NCBI RefSeq assembly: GCF_016786325.1
Contig: NZ_JADWYU010000134.1
Coordinates: 1-46,109 of the forward strand
Direction of reading: 5' to 3'
DNA from: Frankia nepalensis
GTDB taxonomy: Bacteria; Actinomycetota; Actinomycetes; Frankiales; Frankiaceae
DNA length: 46,109 nt
A program made the position numbers and the translations under genes. The notes under the pieces were generated by a model. It had not been told where the DNA came from. It saw nothing but the letters and a program-made list of their open reading frames with translations, and did no database searches. Below, piece by piece: positions 1-12,394 of the stretch (positions are counted from its first letter, which is position 1; every line of letters starts with the position of its first letter).

Positions 1-87
1 GGAGGACGCGGCGCGGAGGTCCCTTGGGAGCGCAGCGAGCAAGGGGCCGGAGCGCCGCGCCCGGACGGAGCGAACCAGAAAACAGAG

Positions 88-2085
88 CTAGCGGATGAAG
101 GGGGCCAGGGCTTCGGGGTTGGCGACGGCAGCGAGGCTTACCGCGCGGTCGAGTGGGACGCCGGTGAGGAGGCGCTTGACCGGGACCTCGAGTTTCTTGC
201 CGGTGAGGGTGCGGGGGACGTCCAGGATCTCGATGATCCGGTCGGGTACGTGCCTGGGGGTCAGCTCGGTGCGGATCTCGGCCTTGAGTGCTTCGATCAT
301 GGCCTGGGTGAGGCTGCCGCGCCTGGTCGGCACCACGAACAGCAACAGGTGCCCGCTCTGTCCCGGGCCCGAGGTGTCGACCACCAGGCTGTCGGTGATC
401 CCCTCGAACCGCTCGACTACCCGGTAGAGCTCGGCTGTGCCGAGGCGCACGCCGCCCCGGTTCAGGGTCGCGTCCGATCGGCCCTCGATGACGACCGCGC
501 CGGAGGGGGTGAGCCGCGCGAAGTCGCCGTGCCGCCACACCCCGGGGTAGGTCGAGAAGTAGCTCTCCCGTAGCCGGGAGCCGTCGCGGTCACCCCAGAA
601 GAGCAGCGGCATCGACGGCATCGGGGCGGTCACCACCAGTTCGCCCACCTCGTCGACCACAGGGGTGCCCGCGTCGTCGAAGACGTCCGCCGCGCAGCCG
701 AGCGCCCGCATCCCGATCTCGCCGGCGCGGACTGGCGAGATGGGCAGCGCCGCGGCGAGCGGGCCGCACACGTCGGTGCCCCCGCTGATCGACGTGAGCA
801 GGACGTCCGGCTTCACCGAGTCGTAGACCCAGGCATAGCCGTCGGTCGACAGCGGTGACCCGGTCGACCCCACCGTGCGCAGCGTCGACAGGTCGGCCAC
901 CACACACGGCGCGAGGCCCTTGCCCAGGCAGCTGTGGAGGAACGCCGCCGACACACCCAGGCAGGTCAGCCCCAGCGCCTCGACGAGCCGCCACAGCGTG
1001 GACAGGTCCGGGAAGCTCGGGCTGCCGTCGTAGAGCACGATCGTCGAGCCGACGAGCAGGCCGGAGACCAGGAAGTTCCACATCATCCAGCCGGTCGTGG
1101 TGAACCAGCAGAACCGGTCGTCCGGGCCGAGGTCGAGGTGCAGCGACAGCGACTTGAGGTGCTCGAGGAGGATCCCGCCGTGGCTGTGCACGATCGGCTT
1201 CGGCAGCCCGGTCGTGCCGGAGGAGTAGAGGATCCACAGCGGTGCCGCGAACGGCATCGGCTCGAACGTGGGCTTCTCCTCCAGCCCGATGACCAGTTCG
1301 TCCCACCAGGTCATCCCGGGCAGCGAGAGCGCCTCGACCCGCTCGACCACGTCCGCGGACAGGTAGGGCACGACGACGGTCGCGGCCAGGCTGGGCAGCG
1401 ACTCGACCAGCTCGTCGATGTTGTGCAGGATCCCGTGCGGCGTCCCGTTGTAGGTGTAGCCGTCGACGGTGATGAGCACCTTCGGCGAGATCTGGCTGAA
1501 CCGGTCCGCGAGCCCCGACGGCCCGAAGTCCGGCGAGCAGCTCGACCAGACCGCGCCGATGCTCGCCGTGGCGAGCATCGCGATCACCGTGTGCGCGCAG
1601 TTCGGCAGCACGGCCGCGACCCGGTCGCCGCGGTGCACGCCGAGGCGGCGCAGCCCCGCCGCGCAGCGGGCGACCTGGCGGCGCAGCTCGTCCCAGGAGA
1701 TCACGACCGTGGCCGCGTCCTCCCGGACGGCGATCAGCGCCGGCTCCTCGCCGCGGCGCGTGAGCGCGTTCTGGGCGTAGTTCACCTTCGCGCCGGGGAA
1801 CCAGACAGCTCCGGGCATCCGCGCGTCGGCCAGCGCCGGTCCGTCGCCCCGCTCGCCGCGGACGCCGCAGAAGTCCCAGACCGAGTCCCAGAAGGCGCCG
1901 AGCTCGGTTGCCGACCAGCGCCACAGCTCGTCCGGTCCCGCGAACGACAGGCCCCGCTCCGCGGCGAGGAACTCCAGGTAGTGGGTTATCCCCGCGTCGC
2001 GGACCCGCTCGGCGGAGGGCTCCCAGAGCAACGTCCCGGCGCGCACCCCACCAGAGTCGTCCGCGTTGTCCAAGGTTCGCGTCAT
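88..2085 (-). CDS. aacS: Acetoacetyl-CoA synthetase (acetoacetate--CoA ligase)
   Basis: 665 residues, near the usual ~650 for the family. The enzyme activates acetoacetate with ATP and CoA through an acyl-AMP intermediate in the cytosol. The adenylate-forming signature YSSGTTGLPKP lies near residue 285. The C-terminal catalytic-lysine motif PRTLTGKK has its first GK lysine at about residue 630; in this superfamily that lysine is the one silenced by acetylation. The frame stays open far upstream, but similarity to the family begins at MTRTLDNADD, so I start there. The gene diverges from acuC across 141 bases, and a protein acetyltransferase gene follows acuC. This context suggests post-translational control. 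An acetyl-CoA synthetase is the main alternative, but the N-terminal WEPS and HYLEFL regions fit AacS better. Confidence 0.93.
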   Translation of the reverse strand: MTRTLDNADDSGGVRAGTLLWEPSAERVRDAGITHYLEFLAAERGLSFAGPDELWRWSATELGAFWDSVWDFCGVRGERGDGPALADARMPGAVWFPGAKVNYAQNALTRRGEEPALIAVREDAATVVISWDELRRQVARCAAGLRRLGVHRGDRVAAVLPNCAHTVIAMLATASIGAVWSSCSPDFGPSGLADRFSQISPKVLITVDGYTYNGTPHGILHNIDELVESLPSLAATVVVPYLSADVVERVEALSLPGMTWWDELVIGLEEKPTFEPMPFAAPLWILYSSGTTGLPKPIVHSHGGILLEHLKSLSLHLDLGPDDRFCWFTTTGWMMWNFLVSGLLVGSTIVLYDGSPSFPDLSTLWRLVEALGLTCLGVSAAFLHSCLGKGLAPCVVADLSTLRTVGSTGSPLSTDGYAWVYDSVKPDVLLTSISGGTDVCGPLAAALPISPVRAGEIGMRALGCAADVFDDAGTPVVDEVGELVVTAPMPSMPLLFWGDRDGSRLRESYFSTYPGVWRHGDFARLTPSGAVVIEGRSDATLNRGGVRLGTAELYRVVERFEGITDSLVVDTSGPGQSGHLLLFVVPTRRGSLTQAMIEALKAEIRTELTPRHVPDRIIEILDVPRTLTGKKLEVPVKRLLTGVPLDRAVSLAAVANPEALAPFIR

Positions 2086-2213
2086 CTCGTCGCCCGCCAC
2101 GGGGACTGACCCTAATGAATCGGCAGGGGCATTCCGCCAGGTCCCGCCACGGAACGGTCGGAGACCGGGCCCGCGGAACATCTCGAGCCTGTCCGTCAGG
2201 GCGCTGGTCGGAC

Positions 2214-2219
2214 TACCGT
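2214..2219 (+). promoter_or_regulatory. -10 box TACCGT for leaderless acuC
   Basis: TACCGT ends exactly seven bases before the acuC ATG, and no Shine-Dalgarno sequence is present. This is the geometry of a leaderless actinobacterial transcript. No convincing -35 element is visible. Confidence 0.5.
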
Positions 2220-2226
2220 CGCCGTC

Positions 2227-3522
2227 ATGGAAACACTCGGCGACGCGACCGGCGCCAGCGCCGGACATCCCGGCGACGCCGGCCAGGAGACCCTGGTGGT
2301 CTGGGACGACGAGATGCTCGGATACGACTTCGGCCCGCACCATCCGCTGCACCCGGTCCGGCTGGCGCTGACCATGGACCTGGCCGCCAGGGCCGGGGTG
2401 CTGGCCGCGCCCGGGATCGCCACCGTCGCGGCCTCCCTCGCGCCCGACCAGCTCATCGAGCTGGTGCACGACCCGGTGTACGTCGCCGCCGTGCGGCACG
2501 CGGGCGTCCCCGGTGGTGGCAACCCGCGGCTGGCCGCGATGTTCGCGCTCGGCACGGCGGACAATCCGGTGTTCGAGCGGATGCACGAGGCGGCGGCCGC
2601 CGTCACCGGCGGCACGCTGGCCGCGGCGAACGCGGTCTGGTCCGGCTCCCACCGGCACGCGGTCGCGCTTGCCGGCGGGCTGCACCACGCGATGCGCGCC
2701 GGCGCCAGTGGGTTCTGCGTCTACAACGACCCGGCGGTGGCGATCGCCTGGCTGCTGTCGGCCGGCGCCCGGCGGGTCGCCTACGTCGACATCGACGTTC
2801 ATCACGGCGACGGCGTGCAGGCCGCGTTCTACGACGACCCGCGGGTGCTCACGATCTCGCTGCACCAGTCCGGCCGCACGCTCTTCCCCGGCACCGGGTT
2901 CCCGCGCGAGGTCGGGACCGGCGACGCCGAGGGCACGGCGGTGAACGTGGCCCTCCCGCCGGGCACCGACGACGCGGGCTGGCTGCGGGCGTTCTCCGGG
3001 GTGGTGCCGGTGCTGCTGCGCCAGTTCCGGCCCGACGTGCTGGTCACCCAGCATGGCTGCGACACCCACCGCCTCGACCCGCTCGCCGACCTGCGCCTCA
3101 CGGTCGACGGCCAGCGGGCGTCCTACCTGGCGCTGCACGAGCTGGCGCACGAGGTCGCCGGCGGGCGCTGGATCGCCTGCGGCGGCGGCGGGTACGCGCT
3201 GGAGACCGTCGTGCCGCGGGCCTGGACCCATCTGCTGGCGATCGCGGCGCACGCGCCGGTGCCGGTCGACCGCGCGCTGCCCACGGAGTGGCGGGAGTCC
3301 GCCCCGGGCAGGGTGGACGCGGCCACCCGTCGCGACCCGACGCCGCCGGAGGCCGCGGTGGCGGCGATGCCGGCCGCGTTCGGCGACGGCCGCGGCCCGG
3401 TCACCTACCACCCCTGGGACGCGGGCGAGGGCGACCCGGACGACCCGCTCGACCAGGCGGTCGCCGCGACCCGCCGAGAGGTGCTGCCGCTGCACGGCCT
3501 CGACCCGTACCGCGACCGGTAA
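2227..3522 (+). CDS. acuC: AcuC-type lysine deacetylase (histone deacetylase family)
   Basis: 431 residues, Zn-dependent class I HDAC fold. Visible catalytic features are the His pair HH at 153-154, the metal ligands in DIDVHHGDG (Asp190 and His192), Asp279 in the GCDTHRLD segment, and the GGGGY motif with Tyr323. In Bacillus subtilis AcuC removes the acetyl group from acetyl-CoA synthetase and restores its activity. Here the gene faces acetoacetyl-CoA synthetase and is followed by a Pat-type acetyltransferase, so AacS is the likely substrate (inference). The start has no ribosome-binding site but has a TACCGT box seven bases upstream. The roughly 80 C-terminal residues past the core domain are acidic and Pro-rich. 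Confidence 0.92.
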   Translation: METLGDATGASAGHPGDAGQETLVVWDDEMLGYDFGPHHPLHPVRLALTMDLAARAGVLAAPGIATVAASLAPDQLIELVHDPVYVAAVRHAGVPGGGNPRLAAMFALGTADNPVFERMHEAAAAVTGGTLAAANAVWSGSHRHAVALAGGLHHAMRAGASGFCVYNDPAVAIAWLLSAGARRVAYVDIDVHHGDGVQAAFYDDPRVLTISLHQSGRTLFPGTGFPREVGTGDAEGTAVNVALPPGTDDAGWLRAFSGVVPVLLRQFRPDVLVTQHGCDTHRLDPLADLRLTVDGQRASYLALHELAHEVAGGRWIACGGGGYALETVVPRAWTHLLAIAAHAPVPVDRALPTEWRESAPGRVDAATRRDPTPPEAAVAAMPAAFGDGRGPVTYHPWDAGEGDPDDPLDQAVAATRREVLPLHGLDPYRDR

Positions 3523-3564
3523 GGCGGGGCGCCGGGGCGCCCCGCCATCGGGCGCTGAGCGCCC
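3523..3564 (+). terminator. Strong GC hairpins downstream of acuC
   Basis: A perfect 11-bp inverted repeat (GGCGGGGCGCC / GGCGCCCCGCC, 3523-3546) starts on the base after the acuC stop. A second hairpin, GGGCGC-TGA-GCGCCC (3550-3564), follows. There is no U-run, as is usual for GC-rich actinobacteria. The second hairpin resembles the first half of the interspersed repeat at 12.4 kb and 29 kb, and a related GGCGCT-GAA-AGCGCC hairpin lies at 3640-3654. Confidence 0.65.
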
Positions 3565-3745
3565 TCCCGACCTGGTCAGGGCCGAACACATGACGGAGGC
3601 CGGTCCTTACCTGGCTCGGTGCGGTGGCCGGGTTGGCGCGGCGCTGAAAGCGCCGTCACCTCGGTGGGCTGGGTTGGCGGCAGCTGTTGCGGGAGGCGTG
3701 GGACCTACGGGCCGGGTGTGCGGCGATGACCGGGGGAACTGAGCG

Positions 3746-6469
3746 ATGAGCGAGCAGACGGGCGAACGGGAGACGGGCCCGCGGGACGTCGGCCCGCCGC
3801 CGGGGTATCCGTCGGGGTGGGCGGCCGACGTGATCCTCGCCGACGGCGGGACGGCCCACATCCGGCCGATCCTGCCCAGCGACGGGCCGCGGCTGCTCGC
3901 GTTCTGGGAACGGCTGTCCGAACGGTCGATCTACCTGCGGTTCTTCGGCGTGCGCCGGGGACTGTCCCAGGCGGACGTCGATCGGTTCACGATCGTCGAC
4001 CAGTCGGTGCGCGGCGCGCTCGTCGCGCTCATCGGCGGGGAGATGGTCGCCCTCGCGCACTGGGAAGGCACTCCGGCCCCCACCGCGGCGGCCCCCACCG
4101 CGCCGGCCCCGGTCGCGCCGACCCCGGCCGGGGCGTTCCCGGCCGGAGAGGCCGCGGTGGGGGACGCGCGCGGCGGCCCTCCGCCGGTCCGCCCGGCGCC
4201 GGCCGCGGAGGTGGCCTTCCTGGTGGAGGACGCGCAGCAGGGCCGCGGGCTGGGGTCGGTGCTGCTGGAGCATCTGGCGGCGGCCGCGTGGGAGCGCGGG
4301 ATCCGCCGGTTCGACGCGGACGTCCTGGCCGAGAACCAGCAGATGATCCGGGTTTTCCTGGACGCCGGCTACAAGGTCTCGCGGACCTGGGACTCCGGCG
4401 CCGTGCGGCTGTCGTTCGACATCGCGCCGACCGAACGGTCGGTCGACGTCATGCGGGCCCGGGAGCACCATGCCGAGGCGGCGTCGATCGGCCGGCTGCT
4501 GCGCCCGCGCTCGGTGGCGGTGATCGGCGCCTCCCGCCGAAACGGCGCCACCGGCAACGCCGTGCTGCGCAACCTGCTCGCCGGCGGGTTCGACGGACCG
4601 GTGTACCCGGTGAACCCGGCCGCCGCCGCGGGGCCGGGCGCGGTCTCGTCGGTGCGGGCCTTCGCCGGCGTCGAGGACGTCGACGGCCCGGTGGACCTGG
4701 CTGTCCTGTGCGTCCCGCCGCCTCAGGTGGCCGAGGCCGTCGAGGCCTGCGGGCGGCACGGGGTGCGCGGGCTCGTGGTGATCACGGACCTGCGGGACCA
4801 CCCGGTCGAGGAGACGCTCGCCAGCACCGCCCGCGCCGCCGGCATGCGGGTCGTCGGGCCCGCGAGCCTGGGCATCCAGTGCCCCGCGGTGGGCCTGAAT
4901 GCGTCGCTCACGGCCCAGATGCCACCCCCCGGGCGAATTGGTTGCTATTCGCAGTCGGGGCCGCTGGGGGCTGCCATGCTGGGCGCGGCCGAGGCCCGCG
5001 GGCTGGGATTGTCGATGTTCGTCTCAGCCGGTGACCGCGCCGACATCAGCGGCAACGACATGCTGCAGTACTGGGAAGACGACCCGGCGACGGATGTCGC
5101 GCTGCTGCACCTGGAGACCTTCGGGAACCCGCGCAAGTTCGCGCGGCTGGCCCGGCGGGTCGGGCGCTGCACGCCGGTCGTGGTGGTGCGCGTTCGGCGG
5201 TCGCAGCTCGACGCGGCGTTGCTGCGGCAGGCCGGCGTGATCGCCGTCGACCGGGTCTCGGCGGGCTTCGACGTCGCGCAGCTGCTGGCCAACCAGCCGC
5301 TGCCGCGCGGGCGGCGGGTGACCGTGGTCGGCGACTCGCGCGCGCTCGTGCGCCTCACGGTCGAGGCCGCCGAGGCCGGCGGCCTCGAGGTCGAGTCCGT
5401 GCTGCTGCGGCTCGGCAGCGATCCCGAGTTGTTCACCGAGGCCATGCTCGCCGCCGCCGAGACCTCGGACGCGCTGATGGTGACCGTCGCCCCACTGCCC
5501 CCGCTTCCGGTCGAGCCGCTGGCCACAGCCGTCGCCGACGTGGCGGCCGGTCTGGACATCCCGGTGCTGGCCGGCGTCCTCGGCGGCACCCGGATTCCCG
5601 AGCTCGGCACGGTGCCCGCCTACGCGTCACCGGAGGGCGCGGTCGCGGCGCTGCGCCGGGTGGTCTCCTACGCCGGCTGGCGGTCGCGCCCGCTGGGCGC
5701 GGTCCCGGCGACGAGCGCCCGCGCCGACGAGGCCCGCGCGCTCGTCGCCGGCCGGGTCGGCCGGCTCGACGACGCCCAGAGCGCGGCGCTGCTGGGCTGC
5801 TACGGCGTCTCGGTGGAGCCGATGATCCAGGTGGGCAGCGAGGACGCCGCGGTCGCCGCCGCCCACCGGCTGGGCTGGCCGGCGGTGCTCAAGGTCCGGT
5901 CGGGCCCCTACCAGCACCGCCCCGACCTCGGCGGCCAGCGCCTCGACCTGCCCGACGAGGCGGCGATGCGGGCGGCCTGGGCGTCGCTGCGGGAGCTGGT
6001 CGGGCCGGACGTCCCGCTGGTCACGCAACGGATGGCGCCCGCCGGGGTGGTGGTCGTGGTCGGCTCGGAGGAGCATCCGCGGTACGGGCCCCTGGTGTCG
6101 TTCGGGCTGGCCGGGCCGGCGACCGACCTGCTCGGGGATCGGGCCTACCACATCCTGCCGCTGACGGATGTCGACGCGGAGCGGCTGGTCGGCGCCGTGC
6201 GCGCCGCCCCGCTGCTGTCGGGCTATCACGGGTCCGAGCCGGTGGACGTCGCCGCCCTTCGGGAGCTGCTCCTGCGGGTCGCGCGGCTGGCCGACGACCT
6301 GCCCGACGTGGCCCGCCTCGTCCTGGACCCGGTGATCGTGTCCGGCGACCGGGTCACGGTGCTGTCCGCCGAGGTGATGGCCGGCCGGCCGCCGCGCCGC
6401 GCCGACGCCGGCCCCCGGCGCTACTGGACGGCCCCGATGACGGTCGGCGAGGCGGCGCCCGCCCGCTGA
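3746..6469 (+). CDS. pat: Protein lysine acetyltransferase: GNAT fused to NDP-forming acyl-CoA synthetase-like domains
   Basis: 907 residues. The N-terminal GNAT domain spans ~30-235, with acetyl-CoA-binding motif QQGRGLG at 164-170. It is followed by a CoA-binding/succinyl-CoA-ligase-like region from ~251 (SVAVIGASRRNG) and an ATP-grasp-like C-terminus from ~680. The N-terminal placement of GNAT matches Streptomyces PatA, which acetylates acetoacetyl-CoA synthetase; Salmonella Pat has the reverse order. Residues ~107-154 are a Pro/Ala-rich insertion inside the GNAT fold. The start follows GGGGGAA with about eight bases of spacing. Database annotation would probably read bifunctional GNAT/acetate-CoA ligase. 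Ligase activity is unproven, and regulatory acetylation of AacS is the better inference from context. Confidence 0.88.
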   Translation: MSEQTGERETGPRDVGPPPGYPSGWAADVILADGGTAHIRPILPSDGPRLLAFWERLSERSIYLRFFGVRRGLSQADVDRFTIVDQSVRGALVALIGGEMVALAHWEGTPAPTAAAPTAPAPVAPTPAGAFPAGEAAVGDARGGPPPVRPAPAAEVAFLVEDAQQGRGLGSVLLEHLAAAAWERGIRRFDADVLAENQQMIRVFLDAGYKVSRTWDSGAVRLSFDIAPTERSVDVMRAREHHAEAASIGRLLRPRSVAVIGASRRNGATGNAVLRNLLAGGFDGPVYPVNPAAAAGPGAVSSVRAFAGVEDVDGPVDLAVLCVPPPQVAEAVEACGRHGVRGLVVITDLRDHPVEETLASTARAAGMRVVGPASLGIQCPAVGLNASLTAQMPPPGRIGCYSQSGPLGAAMLGAAEARGLGLSMFVSAGDRADISGNDMLQYWEDDPATDVALLHLETFGNPRKFARLARRVGRCTPVVVVRVRRSQLDAALLRQAGVIAVDRVSAGFDVAQLLANQPLPRGRRVTVVGDSRALVRLTVEAAEAGGLEVESVLLRLGSDPELFTEAMLAAAETSDALMVTVAPLPPLPVEPLATAVADVAAGLDIPVLAGVLGGTRIPELGTVPAYASPEGAVAALRRVVSYAGWRSRPLGAVPATSARADEARALVAGRVGRLDDAQSAALLGCYGVSVEPMIQVGSEDAAVAAAHRLGWPAVLKVRSGPYQHRPDLGGQRLDLPDEAAMRAAWASLRELVGPDVPLVTQRMAPAGVVVVVGSEEHPRYGPLVSFGLAGPATDLLGDRAYHILPLTDVDAERLVGAVRAAPLLSGYHGSEPVDVAALRELLLRVARLADDLPDVARLVLDPVIVSGDRVTVLSAEVMAGRPPRRADAGPRRYWTAPMTVGEAAPAR

Positions 6470-6783
6470 GGGAGCGGCTGTGAGTCTGGCCACGTCGGGT
6501 GCCCGCCGGCGAGCGCTACCCGCGTCCCGGCCCGGCCGGACGGCCCGGCGGCGTGCTCGCGGCCCGTCGCCGGACGTTTCCGGGACGTATCTCCAGGTCG
6601 GCGGCGAGGGCGCGAACCGGCGCGGACCCGTCGCCCGGAGCGCCGTGACCACGGGGGAGAGGGGCACGGCGACCATTGGTTGCCGCTTGTTCGCCGCTCG
6701 CCGGGCGCTCGCCGGCCGCCGGCGGTGTGACAGGTCCGGCCCGGTTCCGCACAACATGTCCCCACCGTCGACAATCAGGACCC
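6470..6783. other. Gene-free stretch between pat and the PAS/GAF/SpoIIE gene
   Basis: 314 bases with no supportable gene. It contains a small GC palindrome (GCCGGCCGCCGGC near 6711). A weak AGGA ribosome-binding site lies just before the next start. I see no convincing promoter. Confidence 0.5.
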
Positions 6784-9700
6784 ATGACGCCGTCCTCCGC
6801 CGCCGAGCCGTCCGGCCGTCCGCCCGCCGGCCAGACCGGCGCGTACCCCACCCCGTATCCGGACAACGGGTTTGGCGCCGCTGAGGACGCGAGCCCGCGG
6901 GTCACGGCGTCGCCCTGGCCACAGGCCGGCCCGTCCGGCGGCCAGGAGTGGAACGAGGGGGACTGGAACGGCGAGCAGGACTGGAGCACGGCCGCGGTCT
7001 GGCCGCGCGGCGCCGCCGCCCCTCCCGAGCAGGCCCACCTCGCCGGCCTCGGGCAGCCCTGGCCAGCGGGTACCCCCTATCCGGGAGCCCACCCCGCCGA
7101 CGGCGCGGGCGGCCAGCGGGCCGGCTACGAGGGCGCCGCCGGCAACGGCCCGCCGGGCGACGGCACCTATGGCGCCGGCGGCTATGACAACGGCGCCTAC
7201 GAGAGCGACCCCTACCGCGAGGGCGCCTACGGGGCCGGCTCCTATGACCGGAGCCCCTACGGGGCCGGCTACAACGGCGGCTATGCCGGCCACGGCGGCG
7301 CGGCCGGCGGCTATGACGGCGGATACGAGGCCGGCCAGTACGACGGCGGCCAGGACGCGGGCGGATACGGACAGGGCATCGACGTCCGGACCTCCCAGCA
7401 GAGCTCCCCGACCGGCTTCCAGACCTCCCGGGCCGGTTTCCAGACCTCCCCGACCGGCGGAGCCGATCGGGCGGGATCCCCGGATCCGGCGGGAACCCAG
7501 GGCTTCGCCGCACCGGGGGGGACCGCGAGCCCGGCGGGGCAGAACCAGCCGCCGGCCGGGCCCGCCGGGTATGGCGGCCCGTTCACCGGCCAGCCGCGGC
7601 AGGCCTATGGCCAGAGCCCGTACGGACCGGGTGCCCGGCAGGTCGGCCCGGCCGGTGACCCGTCGGCGCGCCCGCACGGTGCCGACCAGCCGCGGCCCAC
7701 GCCGCCGCCGGGGCTCGCGACGTCACCGCCGACCCCGCCTCCGGCGTCGCAACCGCCTCCGGCGTCGCAACCGCCTCCGCCGCCGAGCTACCCGCCCGGC
7801 GAGTTCCCGCCGTCGTTCGCCGGCCAGAGCGGCCCGCCGCCGTCTCCTCGGCCCTCCGCCCCACCGCCGCCGCCACTCGCCGCGCCCGCGCAGCCCGCCT
7901 CACCGCCGCCGCCACCGCCACCGCCGTCGGCGGTAGCGGCCGCCGCCGCGTCGGTCGCGCCGCCCGCGAGCACCGGCACACCGGCCTCAGGGGCGCTCGG
8001 CGCGCCGGGTCCGTCCGCGCAGCTCAGCCAGTCCGTGGCTCCAGGGCCGGCCGGCCAGGCCGCCGCTGGCGTGTCGCCGCTTTCCGCGTCAGCCGGCGCC
8101 GCGTCAGCCGGTCAGGCGCTCGCCGGCCCGGCGACGAGCGGTCCCGTCACCGCGGGCGCGTTGCCGACGTCGGCCGCGGTCGCCGAGACCTTGTTCAGCC
8201 AGGCGCCGGTGGCGCTCGCGTTCCACGACGCCGCCGGCCGTTACGTGCGCGTCAACGAGGTGCTCGCCCGGCTGAACGGCCGGCCGGTCGCCGACCACAT
8301 CGGCCGCACCGCCCCCGAGCTGCTCGGGGAGATCGGCCAGGAGCTCGCGACCCTGCTCGGCCGCGCGCTGCGTACCGGCGAGCCGGTCGGCGACCTCGAG
8401 ATGAGTGTCGCGACGGGCGTCGCCGGCCCGACCCAGACCTGGCAGGCCAGCTGGTACCCGGTGCCCGGGCCCGGCGGCGCGCCGCTCGGCGCGGTCTTCG
8501 TCGCGATCGACGTCAGCGCCCGCCGGGACGCCGAGCAGGAGGCGGCGCGGGAGCGGGAACGTACCCGGCTGCTCGCCGAGGCGGCGGTCGCCGACGTGCT
8601 GCACGCCGGGCAGGACGGCGCCTTCGACGGCGACATGCCGCGCTGGCGGGCGTTGACCGGCCAGCGGCGCGCGCAGTCCGACCGGTTCGGCTGGCTGGAC
8701 GCCGTACACCCGGCCGACCGGGAGTCGGTGCGCCGCGCCTGGCAGACCGCTGTGGGGCGAGGCGAGGGCTTCGAGGCGGAGTTCCGCGTCCTCGGCGCGG
8801 ACGGCGCCGAGCACGTGATGACGGCCCGCGCGCTCGCCGGCTCGGGTGGCGGCGAGTGGGTCGGCGCCCTGACCGACATCACCGAGCTGCGCGCTGCCCA
8901 GGCCGCCGGCGAGTCGGCCGCCGGCCTGGTGCGGGCCGCCACCGACCGGGTCGAGCAGATCCAGCGGGTGACGGCCGCGCTCGCCCGGGCGGTCACCAGC
9001 GACGACGTGGTCACGGTTCTCCTGGACGCGGGCCGCGTGCTCGGCGCCAGCGGCCGGGGCGTGGCACTGATCGACGACGCGCGTGAACAACTGGTCTTCC
9101 GCGCCCTGGCGGGCTATTCGGCTGACTACACCGACCGCTGGTCGAAGATCAGCCTGGGTGCCGTGCACCCGGCCGCCGAGGTGGTGCGTGGCCGGCGGCC
9201 GCTGTTCCTGACCAGCCGGGAGGAACTGACCACGCGCTGGCCGGTGCCCGACCTGGTCGCGGCCGTCAACGCCACCGAGGACCGGGCCTGGGCGTTGCTG
9301 CCGCTGGCGACCGGCGACGCGCCGACCGGCGTGCTGCTGTTCGGCTTCCCGTCGGCCCGGGAGTTCAGCCTCGACGAACGCGGCTACCTCGAGCTGCTCG
9401 CCGACCAGTGCGCCCTTGCCTTCGACCGCGCCGAGCTGTTCGAGGGCGCGCTCGCGCAGGCGGCCGCCGGCCGGCTGGCGGAGGAGAACACCGCCGCCGC
9501 GCGCGCGGACGCGGCGCGGGCCACCCTGCGGCTGGAGGTGCTCGGCGCGGTGAGCGCGGCGCTGGCCGAGGCGAGCGTCGGCGCCTCTCCCGACCGTCCG
9601 CTGCGCGCCCTCGCCGAGGCCGCCGTCGGGGAGATCGCCGACATCTGCGCGGTGTACCTCCTGGCCGACCAGGAGGCGACCGACGAGGGGCAGCCGGCGC

Positions 9701-11409
9701 GAACGGCGAGCGGGGACCCGGCCGGTGGTGCCACCGCCGACGGCGCGGACCAGGGCGACGACCGGGAGGCCGGGACGGCGCCGGCACCCAAGCTGATCCG
9801 GGTCGCGGCCGCGGGCAGCGGGATCGGCCGGGCGCTGGCCACCGGGCAGCCACAGCTCGTCGTCCTGCGCGATCCCGGCGTGGCCCAGGGCGGCTCCGCG
9901 AACCCGGCCGGGGCCGGCGTCGAGGCGCCCGACGCGGGGCGGCCGGCGCCGACGGTGCAGGCCCTGTCGGCCTCCTCCGCCGACGAGGCGCGCTGGGCTC
10001 GCCGCGCGGGCGCGCACACGCTCGCCGCGGCGCCCGTCCTGCGCGGCGGCCGCCCGGTAGGGGCCGTGATGCTGGCCACGCTCGCCGGGCGCCCGCCGCT
10101 GACCGAGCAGGATCTCGCCCTGGTGGCCGAGCTGGCGGCGCGCGCCGCGGCGGCGGTCGAACGGGCGGAGCTTGCCGCGGCCGCCGCTCCTGGCGCGCTC
10201 GCGGCTCGTCGGCGCGCCGCCGCGAGCGGCGCCTCGGCCCCGGCCGGGCTCGCCGTGGCCATGCGCCACCGGCCCGGCGAGGCAGGCGCGAGCTGGGACT
10301 GGTACGACGTGATCGACCTCGGCGCCGGCCGGGCCGCACTGGTGATCGGCAACATCGCCGGTGGCGACGCCCAGGCCGCCGCGGTGATGGACGCGCTGCG
10401 CGCCTCGGTGCGGGCCTGCGCGCGCCTGGACCTCCCGCCGCACGAGGTGATCACGCTGCTCGACGGCGTGCTGGCCGACCTCGCCGACCCCGCCCGCCCG
10501 GACGCCGGGGCGGGTGGGCCGGCCGCCGGCCCGGTTCCCGGCCAGGTCGCCACCTGCATCTACGCGATCGTCGAGGCCGACAACGCGCGGGTGACGCTGG
10601 CGAGCGCCGGGCACCCGCCGCCGCTGGTGGTCGCGCCCGACGGGCTGGTCTCCCGGCTCTACATGGAGGTCGGCCCGCCGCTCGGTTCCCGCCGCGACGA
10701 CGTGAAGGAATACGTCGTGCGCCTTGGCCCGGACTGGCTGCTGGCGCTGTTCACCGACGGGCTGGTCGCCGCCGGCGGCCGGGAGCTGGACGCCGGGGTG
10801 TCCCTGCTCGCCGGCGCGCTCGCCCGTCCCGGCGCGCCGTTGGGAGAGCTGGTGGACGACGCGTTCGTGGCGCTCGGCCCGGGCGCCGCGCCGACGGACA
10901 TCGCGCCGACGGGCACGGCCGCGGGCCACCGGCCGTCGGTTCCGGCCGGCGCCGACGAGGCCGGGCTGTCCGTCGACGCCGCGCTGCTGCTGGCCCGCCT
11001 GCCCCAGGCGCCGCCAGCCAGCGCGACAGTGGAGATCCAGGTCGACGGTGGGGCCGCGGACCTCGGGCCCGCCAGAGCCGCGGCGCGTGCCGCGCTGGTG
11101 GACTGGGCGCTGCCCGCCGACGCCCTGGAGACGGCCGTGCTGGTGCTCTCCGAGCTGGTCGGCAACGCCATCGCGCACGGCCGGCCACCGATCGACGCCC
11201 GGCTCCGCCGGCTTGCCGACCGGGTCGTGGTCGAGGTGGCCGACGGTGGCGGCCGGCTGCCGCGGCGTCGGCACGTCGGCGTCGACGAGGAGGCCGGGCG
11301 GGGCCTGGAGCTGGTGGCGACCCTCGCCGACCGCTGGGGGGTTCGCCCGACGCCCGATGGCAAGGTCGTCTGGGCCGAGATCGGTCCGGCGGCCCTGACG
11401 ACCGGCTGA
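6784..11409 (+). CDS. PAS-PAS-GAF-GAF-SpoIIE phosphatase-HATPase regulatory protein
   Basis: 1541 residues. Residues 1-460 are low complexity: Gly/Tyr-rich near 125-200 (repeated YGAG, GGYDGGY-like units), then Pro-rich. PAS domains lie at ~466-570 and ~600-706, GAF domains at ~726-886 and ~915-1130, a PP2C/SpoIIE domain at ~1133-1363, and an RsbW-like anti-sigma kinase at ~1417-1541 with N-box ELVGNAIAHG and the GRGLELV motif. Such proteins sense signals and set the phosphorylation of anti-anti-sigma factors. The phosphatase keeps Asp1172 (WDWYD), SAGHPPPL and TDGL, but the usual GDVxGHG is GNIAGGD, with Asn1190 at a metal-ligand position, so activity may be weak or lost. The start ATG follows AGGA; earlier in-frame starts give unlikely sequence. 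No partner sigma or STAS gene is in the window. Confidence 0.85.
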   Translation: MTPSSAAEPSGRPPAGQTGAYPTPYPDNGFGAAEDASPRVTASPWPQAGPSGGQEWNEGDWNGEQDWSTAAVWPRGAAAPPEQAHLAGLGQPWPAGTPYPGAHPADGAGGQRAGYEGAAGNGPPGDGTYGAGGYDNGAYESDPYREGAYGAGSYDRSPYGAGYNGGYAGHGGAAGGYDGGYEAGQYDGGQDAGGYGQGIDVRTSQQSSPTGFQTSRAGFQTSPTGGADRAGSPDPAGTQGFAAPGGTASPAGQNQPPAGPAGYGGPFTGQPRQAYGQSPYGPGARQVGPAGDPSARPHGADQPRPTPPPGLATSPPTPPPASQPPPASQPPPPPSYPPGEFPPSFAGQSGPPPSPRPSAPPPPPLAAPAQPASPPPPPPPPSAVAAAAASVAPPASTGTPASGALGAPGPSAQLSQSVAPGPAGQAAAGVSPLSASAGAASAGQALAGPATSGPVTAGALPTSAAVAETLFSQAPVALAFHDAAGRYVRVNEVLARLNGRPVADHIGRTAPELLGEIGQELATLLGRALRTGEPVGDLEMSVATGVAGPTQTWQASWYPVPGPGGAPLGAVFVAIDVSARRDAEQEAARERERTRLLAEAAVADVLHAGQDGAFDGDMPRWRALTGQRRAQSDRFGWLDAVHPADRESVRRAWQTAVGRGEGFEAEFRVLGADGAEHVMTARALAGSGGGEWVGALTDITELRAAQAAGESAAGLVRAATDRVEQIQRVTAALARAVTSDDVVTVLLDAGRVLGASGRGVALIDDAREQLVFRALAGYSADYTDRWSKISLGAVHPAAEVVRGRRPLFLTSREELTTRWPVPDLVAAVNATEDRAWALLPLATGDAPTGVLLFGFPSAREFSLDERGYLELLADQCALAFDRAELFEGALAQAAAGRLAEENTAAARADAARATLRLEVLGAVSAALAEASVGASPDRPLRALAEAAVGEIADICAVYLLADQEATDEGQPARTASGDPAGGATADGADQGDDREAGTAPAPKLIRVAAAGSGIGRALATGQPQLVVLRDPGVAQGGSANPAGAGVEAPDAGRPAPTVQALSASSADEARWARRAGAHTLAAAPVLRGGRPVGAVMLATLAGRPPLTEQDLALVAELAARAAAAVERAELAAAAAPGALAARRRAAASGASAPAGLAVAMRHRPGEAGASWDWYDVIDLGAGRAALVIGNIAGGDAQAAAVMDALRASVRACARLDLPPHEVITLLDGVLADLADPARPDAGAGGPAAGPVPGQVATCIYAIVEADNARVTLASAGHPPPLVVAPDGLVSRLYMEVGPPLGSRRDDVKEYVVRLGPDWLLALFTDGLVAAGGRELDAGVSLLAGALARPGAPLGELVDDAFVALGPGAAPTDIAPTGTAAGHRPSVPAGADEAGLSVDAALLLARLPQAPPASATVEIQVDGGAADLGPARAAARAALVDWALPADALETAVLVLSELVGNAIAHGRPPIDARLRRLADRVVVEVADGGGRLPRRRHVGVDEEAGRGLELVATLADRWGVRPTPDGKVVWAEIGPAALTTG

Positions 11410-11559: not shown

Positions 11560-11565
11560 TAACGT
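11560..11565 (+). promoter_or_regulatory. -10 box TAACGT for leaderless ABC ATPase gene
   Basis: TAACGT ends seven bases before the ATG at 11573. A GTG at 11564 is an alternative start but would overlap this box. Confidence 0.45.
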
Positions 11566-11572
11566 GAGCGCC

Positions 11573-12394
11573 ATGGCGGACACGATCGTGTGCCTCGACC
11601 GGGCGACCGTGCGGCGGGACGGGGCGGCGTTGCTGTCCGACGTCAGCTGGACGATCTCGGCCGGGCAGCGTTGGGTGGTGCTCGGGCCGAACGGCGCGGG
11701 CAAGACGACGCTGCTGCTGGTGGCGGCCGGCCGGCTGTTCCCGACCAGCGGGGCGGTGGACCTGTTCGGCTCCCGGCTGGGCACGGTCGACATGCGCGAG
11801 CTGCGGTACCGGGTGGGGCTGGTCAGCCCGGCGCTCACCGAGACGCCGCCGGCGGACGAACGGGTCCTGGACGCGGTGTTGACCGCCGCCTGGTCGGTGC
11901 TCGGCCGGGGACATGAGCACTACGACGACATCGACGTGGCGAGGGCGAGCGAGCTGCTGCGCCAGTTCGGCTGCGCCCCGCTGTCGTCCCGCCGCTTCGG
12001 AACGCTGTCCGAGGGCGAACGCAAGCGGGTCGCGATCGCGCGCGCCCTGATGACCGACCCCGAGCTGCTGCTGCTCGACGAGCCCGCGTCCGGGCTGGAC
12101 CTCGGTGCCCGGGAGGCGCTGCTGCGCCGGCTCACCCGCTTCGCGGCCGATCCGGCGGCGCCGGCGATGGTGCTGGTCAGCCACCACGTCGAGGAGATCC
12201 CGGCCGGGGTGACCCACGCCTTGCTGCTGCGCGCGGGCCGCGTCGTCGCCGCCGGGCCGGTCGAGGAGGCGCTGGCCGCGGGCCCGCTGTCCGACTGCTT
12301 CGGTATCCCGCTTGAGGTCACCGCGACGGCCGGCCGCTACACGGCTCGGCTCGCTCCCCGCCCGCCCCGTCCCCGGGCCGTCACGCCCGCCTGA
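11573..12394 (+). CDS. ABC transporter ATP-binding protein
   Basis: 273 residues, a single nucleotide-binding domain. Walker A GPNGAGKTT is near residue 40, the signature LSEGERKRVAIARAL near 145, Walker B LLLLDEPASGLDL near 165, and the switch His lies in VSHHVEE. No permease or binding protein is adjacent, so the transported substrate cannot be inferred. A stand-alone ATPase of this type may pair with a distant permease or act in a non-transport role. ATG at 11573 is preferred over GTG at 11564 because of the upstream TAACGT-N7 arrangement. It converges on the gene at 12587 across a gap holding an interspersed repeat. Confidence 0.88.
   Translation: MADTIVCLDRATVRRDGAALLSDVSWTISAGQRWVVLGPNGAGKTTLLLVAAGRLFPTSGAVDLFGSRLGTVDMRELRYRVGLVSPALTETPPADERVLDAVLTAAWSVLGRGHEHYDDIDVARASELLRQFGCAPLSSRRFGTLSEGERKRVAIARALMTDPELLLLDEPASGLDLGAREALLRRLTRFAADPAAPAMVLVSHHVEEIPAGVTHALLLRAGRVVAAGPVEEALAAGPLSDCFGIPLEVTATAGRYTARLAPRPPRPRAVTPA

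Follow-up and report, generated by a model that had tools for sequence, protein, structure and literature searches.

A conserved AacS–AcuC–Pat locus in Frankiaceae and its probable role as a reversible lysine-acylation module

Genes for a CoA ligase, an AcuC-type deacylase and a Pat-type acetyltransferase lie together near one end of a 46,109-nucleotide contig of Frankia nepalensis (C334; the whole contig is the window analysed here), which raises the question of whether acetoacetyl-CoA synthetase (AacS) is encoded beside the enzymes that write and erase its own acylation. A sequence-only reading of this DNA had proposed as much, describing a self-contained switch with AcuC as the likely reverser. 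All three genes are confirmed and carry the expected active-site motifs (Table 1), and the gene identities given in that reading are borne out by TIGR01217, PF00850, the Pfam domains and the motifs described below. The aacS gene is divergent from acuC-pat across a gap of 126 bp, taking GTG 2100 as its start; acuC and pat are 223 bp apart, and nothing is visible past the 3' end of aacS, where the contig stops. The arrangement is more than chance, since it is found again across Frankiaceae in relatives with protein identity as low as about 65%.

Table 1. Features of the AacS–AcuC–Pat locus, in window coordinates
Feature	Position	Strand	Remarks
aacS, acetoacetyl-CoA synthetase (AMP-forming)	88..2100	-	670 aa; GTG start 2100 preferred over ATG 2085; TIGR01217
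acuC, class I HDAC-like Zn deacylase	2227..3522	+	431 aa; PF00850, 278 bits; aligned to HDAC6 chains
pat, type II protein acetyltransferase, N-terminal GNAT	3746..6469	+	907 aa; Pfam domains
Codon of predicted acylation-target lysine, motif PRTLTGKK	196..198	-	alignment with K617 of 4wd1
TAGGGT, -10-like box	2109..2114	-	8 nt upstream of aacS GTG; 26 upstream rows compared
TACCGT, -10-like box	2214..2219	+	7 nt upstream of acuC ATG; weaker case than aacS box

The ligase is AacS and not Acs, because it scores 820 bits against the equivalog TIGR01217 (acetoacetate--CoA ligase), where 520.9 is the cut-off, but 274 bits against TIGR02188 (acetate--CoA ligase), whose cut-off is 725; acetoacetate is its predicted substrate. 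A relative of solved structure is 4wd1, 'Acetoacetate-CoA ligase' (phmmer E=8e-202), which we take to be the S. lividans AacS, in agreement with a reference title. The ANL core motifs A3, A5, A7, A8 and A10 are present as YSSGTTGLPKP, SGGTD, WRHGD, GRSDATLNRGG and TGKK. Within the acylation motif, VPRTLTGKKLEVPVK, the target lysine is K630 when counted from ATG 2085 and K635 from GTG 2100; K630 aligns with K617 of 4wd1, in line with the earlier placing of the target at about residue 630. K617 of S. lividans AacS is tabulated as a SlPat acetylation site (PMC6640162). The same genome encodes a second AacS-like protein (C220, 49%) in which TGKK is kept, together with a canonical Acs and an Acs-like protein that both carry PKTRSGKI.

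AcuC is the single PF00850 match (E<=0.001) found in this genome. Alignment with HDACs places its His-His dyad at H153/H154, an Asp-His-Asp zinc site at D190, H192 and D279, and the Tyr at Y323, and we predict that it deacylates a CoA ligase. Across 103 AcuC proteins, a strict pattern for the third zinc motif missed 26 and a looser one found 93, while in the ten that escaped the latter the Asp has a comparable setting or lies ahead of the part displayed; these counts carry no weight in what follows. Pat has the Pfam domain order GNAT, CoA-binding, Succ_CoA_lig and ATP-grasp_5, with an acetyl-CoA P-loop, QQGRGLG (164-170), that fits (R/Q)xxGx(G/A). Its GNAT domain matches the chains 4nxy (E=3e-47) and 4u5y (E=1e-46), listed as 'Acyl-CoA synthetase' and presumably the S. 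lividans Pat GNAT domain, and E155 aligns with a Glu of Pat chain 9it0. NCBIfam assigns no family to AcuC, and its matches to Pat all fall below their cut-offs. Opposite SHTG, a His-containing stretch of the ACD enzyme 8wzu, the Pat of the window shows a gap, and PMC8556138, the source of the class definition, states the same absence for type II Pats. By domain order and by this gap it is a type II GNAT acetyltransferase, and it is the predicted acetyltransferase of AacS. Inside the GNAT domain lies a low-complexity, Ala/Pro-rich stretch (window 4082-4195; Pat residues about 113-150), at which the Pat match breaks in many Frankia genomes.

Conservation among related genomes, which the sequence-only reading had put forward as a check, was examined by searching 35 genomes of the order (G numbers) with each of the three proteins. 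The groups include Pseudofrankia (g1; G028, which is also locus L008), Frankia (g2; G005 is QA3), Parafrankia (g6; G021 is EUN1f), g7, in which 'Frankia sp. CIT1' (G026) falls, and g4, a single MAG titled Frankia alni (G015). AcuC was found in 32/35 genomes (E<=0.001), AacS in 34/35 (E<=1e-60, other ligases counted in) and Pat in 33/35 (E<=1e-30, paralogues counted in), with G024 yielding only a 43% Pat fragment. An adjacent trio with full-length AacS is present in 23/35, made up of 8/8 g1, 13/13 g2 and 2/5 g7 genomes; within these, Pat is cut by a contig end in G011 and interrupted by N in G025. Seven more (6/6 g6 and 1/1 g4) have a degenerate AacS beside AcuC-Pat, in G015 at a wider gap of about 1.3 kb. 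The remainder comprises three genomes with AacS and neither AcuC nor Pat (G023, G024 and G027) and two with AcuC-Pat and no linked AacS (G014, where AacS is on another contig, and G016, with no AacS and 63% completeness). Throughout g1 and g2, and in part of g7, aacS remains divergent from acuC-pat. AacS motifs were read in 26 rows (5/8 g1, 8/13 g2 and genomes of g3, g4, g6 and g7), and the target lysine is present in 19/19 full-length rows, from g1, g2, g3 and g7. The residue before it is Gly in the window and Asp or Ala in L015 and L018 (Frankia sp. R82 and Ca. F. nodulisporulans; THTDKK and THTAKK), a replacement that may alter recognition by Pat.

Named AcuC loci (L numbers) give a second view, limited to the best 80 of 482 confirmed, biased to close relatives and including several of the same records as the genomes above. 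In this set, all 14 loci titled Frankia, Pseudofrankia or Parafrankia (L008-L021) have AacS, AcuC and Pat, with AacS degenerate in L012 and L014 and Pat cut by a contig end in L021. Five MAG loci titled 'Frankiaceae bacterium' (L023, L024, L029, L040 and L062), also among the best 80 of 482, have no AacS; L024 is G043, placed in another family by genome search, and L062, 3.5 kb long, is one of the contigs of G016. The three-gene arrangement is a trait of Frankiaceae. G014 (L101-L103; 3.0 Mb), also of this family, has three AcuC-like and several Pat-like genes and no SIR2 match.

The surroundings of the trio recur as well. In the window, pat is followed by genes for a PAS-GAF-SpoIIE phosphatase with a C-terminal HATPase_c_2 domain (6676-11409, +) and an ABC ATPase (11564-12394, +); matches to both lie 3' of Pat in L008, L013, L014, L017, L018 and L020, and adjoin AacS in G023 and G024, where AcuC-Pat has been lost. 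At the 3' side of AacS, a side removed by the contig end in the window, a convergent gene encodes what we read as a putative principal-type sigma factor (for example, L014:6584-7861). It stands beside AacS in 27/31 loci, duplicates included, at 82-100% identity, and was not found in L009, L100, L101 and L104.

Comparison of 26 upstream rows bears on the aacS start. Rows of g1, g2, g6 and g7 share a TAGGGT box (TAAGGT in G034 and G023), then 7-8 bases, then GTGGC, and since box and GTG are common to these groups we place the start at GTG 2100; the g3 and g4 rows differ. This box, a putative promoter element 8 nt before the GTG, suggests a leaderless aacS transcript. The TACCGT before acuC also appears in G034, 6/8 g2 and 3/6 g6 upstream rows, with a TACCTT variant in P. 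asymbiotica and F. tisae; nothing similar was noticed in the remaining upstream rows, some of which stop short of the acuC start, and its candidacy as a promoter is less secure than that of the aacS box. A scan of 1-6700 for sigma-70 consensus promoters and terminators returned 0 promoter-like and 0 terminator-like sites; both -10-like boxes emerge from the row comparison.

Beyond the family, the pair and the ligase come apart. We drew 118 genomes evenly across the class at completeness of at least 90%, 10 of them from the window's family and 108 from others. AacS (E<=1e-130) occurs in 57/108 non-family genomes and is linked to AcuC or Pat in 0/57, as read by eye from printed coordinates in a sample with many drafts; in G066, AacS and AcuC are on different contigs, each close to an end. 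AcuC (E<=1e-60) and Pat (E<=1e-100) occur together in 71/108, apart in 61 of these (many of them drafts) and adjacent in ten (G043, G046, G052, G060, G064, G103, G111, G120, G129 and G138, with Pat first in G046 and G064). The 66 loci L022-L087, again from the best 80 of 482, include 63 with 1.5 kb downstream, and Pat directly follows AcuC in 7/63; a Pat-like match lies on the other strand in L054, L067 and L077. Two MAG loci, L038 (titled Nocardioidaceae) and L041 (titled Sporichthyaceae), have the order acs-acuC-pat, the first gene being an Acs relative with 73-75% identity to this genome's Acs and cut by the contig start. Because the pair is adjacent without AacS outside the family and stands next to acs in these two loci, AcuC-Pat looks like the older unit, with a ligase neighbour that can be swapped. 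That neighbour is Acs in two loci and AacS in Frankiaceae; in Bacillus, AcsA stands with AcuA/AcuC.

In 6/6 Parafrankia genomes, from six species, AacS lacks the SSG(T/S)TG loop and A8, has Glu for the Asp of A7 and ends near query residue 550, so that the lysine domain is absent; G018 and G020 keep SGGTE at A5, and the start and upstream box are intact. In G015 the target lysine is replaced by Glu, A3, A5 and A7 are altered and A8 is partly kept. No other AacS-like match above 35% identity at E<=1e-60 was found in the seven genomes, with at most 34 candidates scored in each. Sequencing error was considered for the Parafrankia truncation and rejected: the C-terminal part is missing from all six genomes, an AacS query finds no second stretch (E<=1e-4) in the six loci, and the order sigma factor, AacS, AcuC, Pat is kept. 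Apparent internal stops in G019 and G022 are the end of a shorter frame (the frames stay open for 548 and 569 codons), and L093 (G022) has six single N bases, one within the AacS frame. A shared origin of the g4 and g6 degenerate forms is not supported, as the AcuC tree joins g4 to g7 (91/92) and g6 to g2 (84/84), on unstarred branches and with G015 a long branch; its length is 1.46 in the AacS tree versus 0.34 in the AcuC tree.

Open frames alone were discarded as evidence of selection, since in GC-rich DNA long frames stay open on either strand, and dN/dS and codon-position differences were used in their place. By NG86, which ignores codon bias and so gives indications, the remnant has dN/dS of 0.19-0.42 over 15 pairs from the six Parafrankia genomes, with 0.17-0.33 for AcuC and 0.21-0.26 for Pat in the same pairs and 0.10-0.41 for full-length AacS of five g1 genomes; the remnant is less constrained than AcuC and Pat in most pairs. 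For its two closest pairs, the differences counted by codon position are 11/6/35 and 33/15/60 (counts derived from rounded fractions; p about 1e-6 and 6e-7 against equality). The remnant thus shows signs of purifying selection, and its predicted structure (L014, seven-row alignment), with a mean pLDDT of 40.9, is uninformative. We raise tentatively, and think it rather unlikely, that it is a conserved pseudoenzyme, a non-catalytic partner of Pat/AcuC (sensor, decoy or scaffold) and not their substrate. Decayed yet apparently selected, the Parafrankia AacS may be a substrate on its way to becoming a pseudoenzyme, still next to the enzymes that would write and erase its acylation. As AcuC-Pat stays in place where AacS has decayed, the pair probably serves other targets too.

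What, then, might the locus do? We consider it moderately probable that it is a reversible lysine-acylation module in which Pat acetylates AacS and AcuC deacylates it, the pair being older and serving several CoA ligases. Gene identity, motifs, synteny, joint loss and distribution form the observed basis of this reading, and from them we infer its chemistry, substrates and acetyl-CoA sensing. Pat would use acetyl-CoA, probably sensed by its ACD-like domains, and would acetylate the A10 lysine of AacS (K630/K635), so that acetoacetate activation stops when acetyl-CoA is plentiful; AcuC, as a Zn-dependent and NAD-independent deacylase, would take the acetyl group off again. The aacS gene would have come to adjoin AcuC-Pat divergently in an ancestor of the main Frankiaceae genera, with Acs as the obvious second target of the older pair. 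Several observations count against the module: AcuC and Pat lie apart in 61 of the 71 non-family genomes with both genes (many of them drafts), three g7 genomes have AacS and its lysine with neither enzyme, seven genomes retain AcuC-Pat next to an AacS that has lost the target lysine, and this genome has two SIR2 proteins. The last two, together with AcuC-Pat pairs free of AacS or next to acs in other families and a canonical Acs here with the same type of lysine site, leave the description of the locus as self-contained unsupported; AacS is a likely, non-exclusive substrate. One could go further and suppose that AcuC-Pat mainly controls Acs and other targets encoded elsewhere, aacS being a neighbour by descent under weak or no control. 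A TIGR02188 Acs above cut-off in 35/35 genomes, the PKTRSGKI site, the L038 and L041 loci, the ten adjacent pairs with no linked AacS, the seven degenerate ligases and the tabulation of S. lividans Acs K610 as a SlPatA/SlPatB target (PMC6640162) are all consistent with that account. However, SlPatA is described as acetylating AacS efficiently and its cognate Acs poorly in vitro (PMC4053389), and a divergent layout held across g1, g2 and part of g7, with the lysine in every full-length row read, argues for control of AacS; we regard the Acs-centred account as possible and on the unlikely side.

SIR2 proteins are encoded in 29/35 genomes of the order, B. subtilis Acs is acted on by both AcuC and SrtN, and S. 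lividans AacS is tabulated with SeCobB as deacetylase (both in PMC6640162), all of which would fit a sirtuin as the physiological eraser of AacS, with AcuC acting on other substrates. No SIR2 match was found, however, in 5/5 g7 genomes (nor in G014), and two of these, G025 and G026 (92% and 100% complete; the other three are 81-88%), keep Pat and AcuC, so AcuC is the only eraser of known type found in them. Moreover, AcuC and Pat adjoin and go missing together, and no sirtuin lies at the trio locus. In G023, G024 and G027 the distance between aacS and the first SpoIIE match shrinks to 0.7-1.0 kb; this stretch is spanned and contains weak remnants of AcuC (G023, residues about 100-153, E=3e-9, and 287-309; G027, 287-326, E=4e-5; G024, 287-306, E=0.002 only) and no clear Pat remnant. 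The AacS tree unites these three genomes in a single clade, so AcuC and Pat may have been lost together just once, and since the three keep AacS and its lysine without AcuC, Pat or a SIR2 match, the regulation is dispensable. We favour AcuC as the AacS eraser, because it is co-lost with Pat and because two genomes keep Pat and AcuC with no sirtuin detected, and consider the sirtuin improbable; the earlier naming of AcuC as reverser gains from both observations. Genomes with Pat and AcuC and no detected sirtuin, and a clade that keeps AacS without the pair, offer natural comparisons for the purpose of the switch.

The comparison with Streptomyces needs one adjustment. Acetylation of S. lividans AacS by Pat, as first suggested, agrees with the sources (PMC6640162, PMC4053389), and the sirtuin first given as its reverser needs correcting: SeCobB, which we read as the Salmonella sirtuin, is listed for AacS, and the Streptomyces enzyme SlSrtA is tabulated for Acs. 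SeCobB is the sole AacS deacetylase entered in that table (PMC6640162), and Frankiaceae provide a linked candidate for the AacS deacetylase of actinobacteria. The S. lividans SlPatA–AacS (K617) system shares with the window the ligase family, the lysine and a GNAT-first Pat (PMC6640162, PMC4053389), and differs in its listed deacetylase and in linkage to AcuC, absent from all 57 sampled non-family genomes with AacS, a sample that S. lividans itself lies outside. In the openly licensed literature covering both, as far as available, we met no AacS–AcuC linkage, which may be noted elsewhere; that literature also yielded nothing on acetoacetyl-CoA synthetase in Frankia or on pseudoenzyme acyl-CoA synthetases.

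In the L041 and L038 loci, AcuC is likewise followed by a GNAT-ACD Pat with a CoA ligase at the 5' side, but there the ligase gene runs in the same direction and encodes an Acs relative, in place of a divergent AacS. Another close system is acsA/acuABC of B. subtilis, where AcuA acetylates a lysine of the AcsA ligase and AcuC removes the group (PMC13121692; PMC11255334). The Bacillus-like logic first suggested for the window is seen in its layout: in both, a CoA ligase gene is divergent from genes for a GNAT acetyltransferase and AcuC. The ligase, however, is AacS in Frankiaceae and AcsA in Bacillus, the writer is a 907-aa two-part type II Pat in place of the small AcuA, and AcuC precedes Pat with no acuB-like gene between them; neither an AcuA-type small GNAT nor an AcuB Bateman/ACT protein is encoded at the window locus. 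The Frankiaceae trio works like acsA/acuABC, yet we do not class it as a member.
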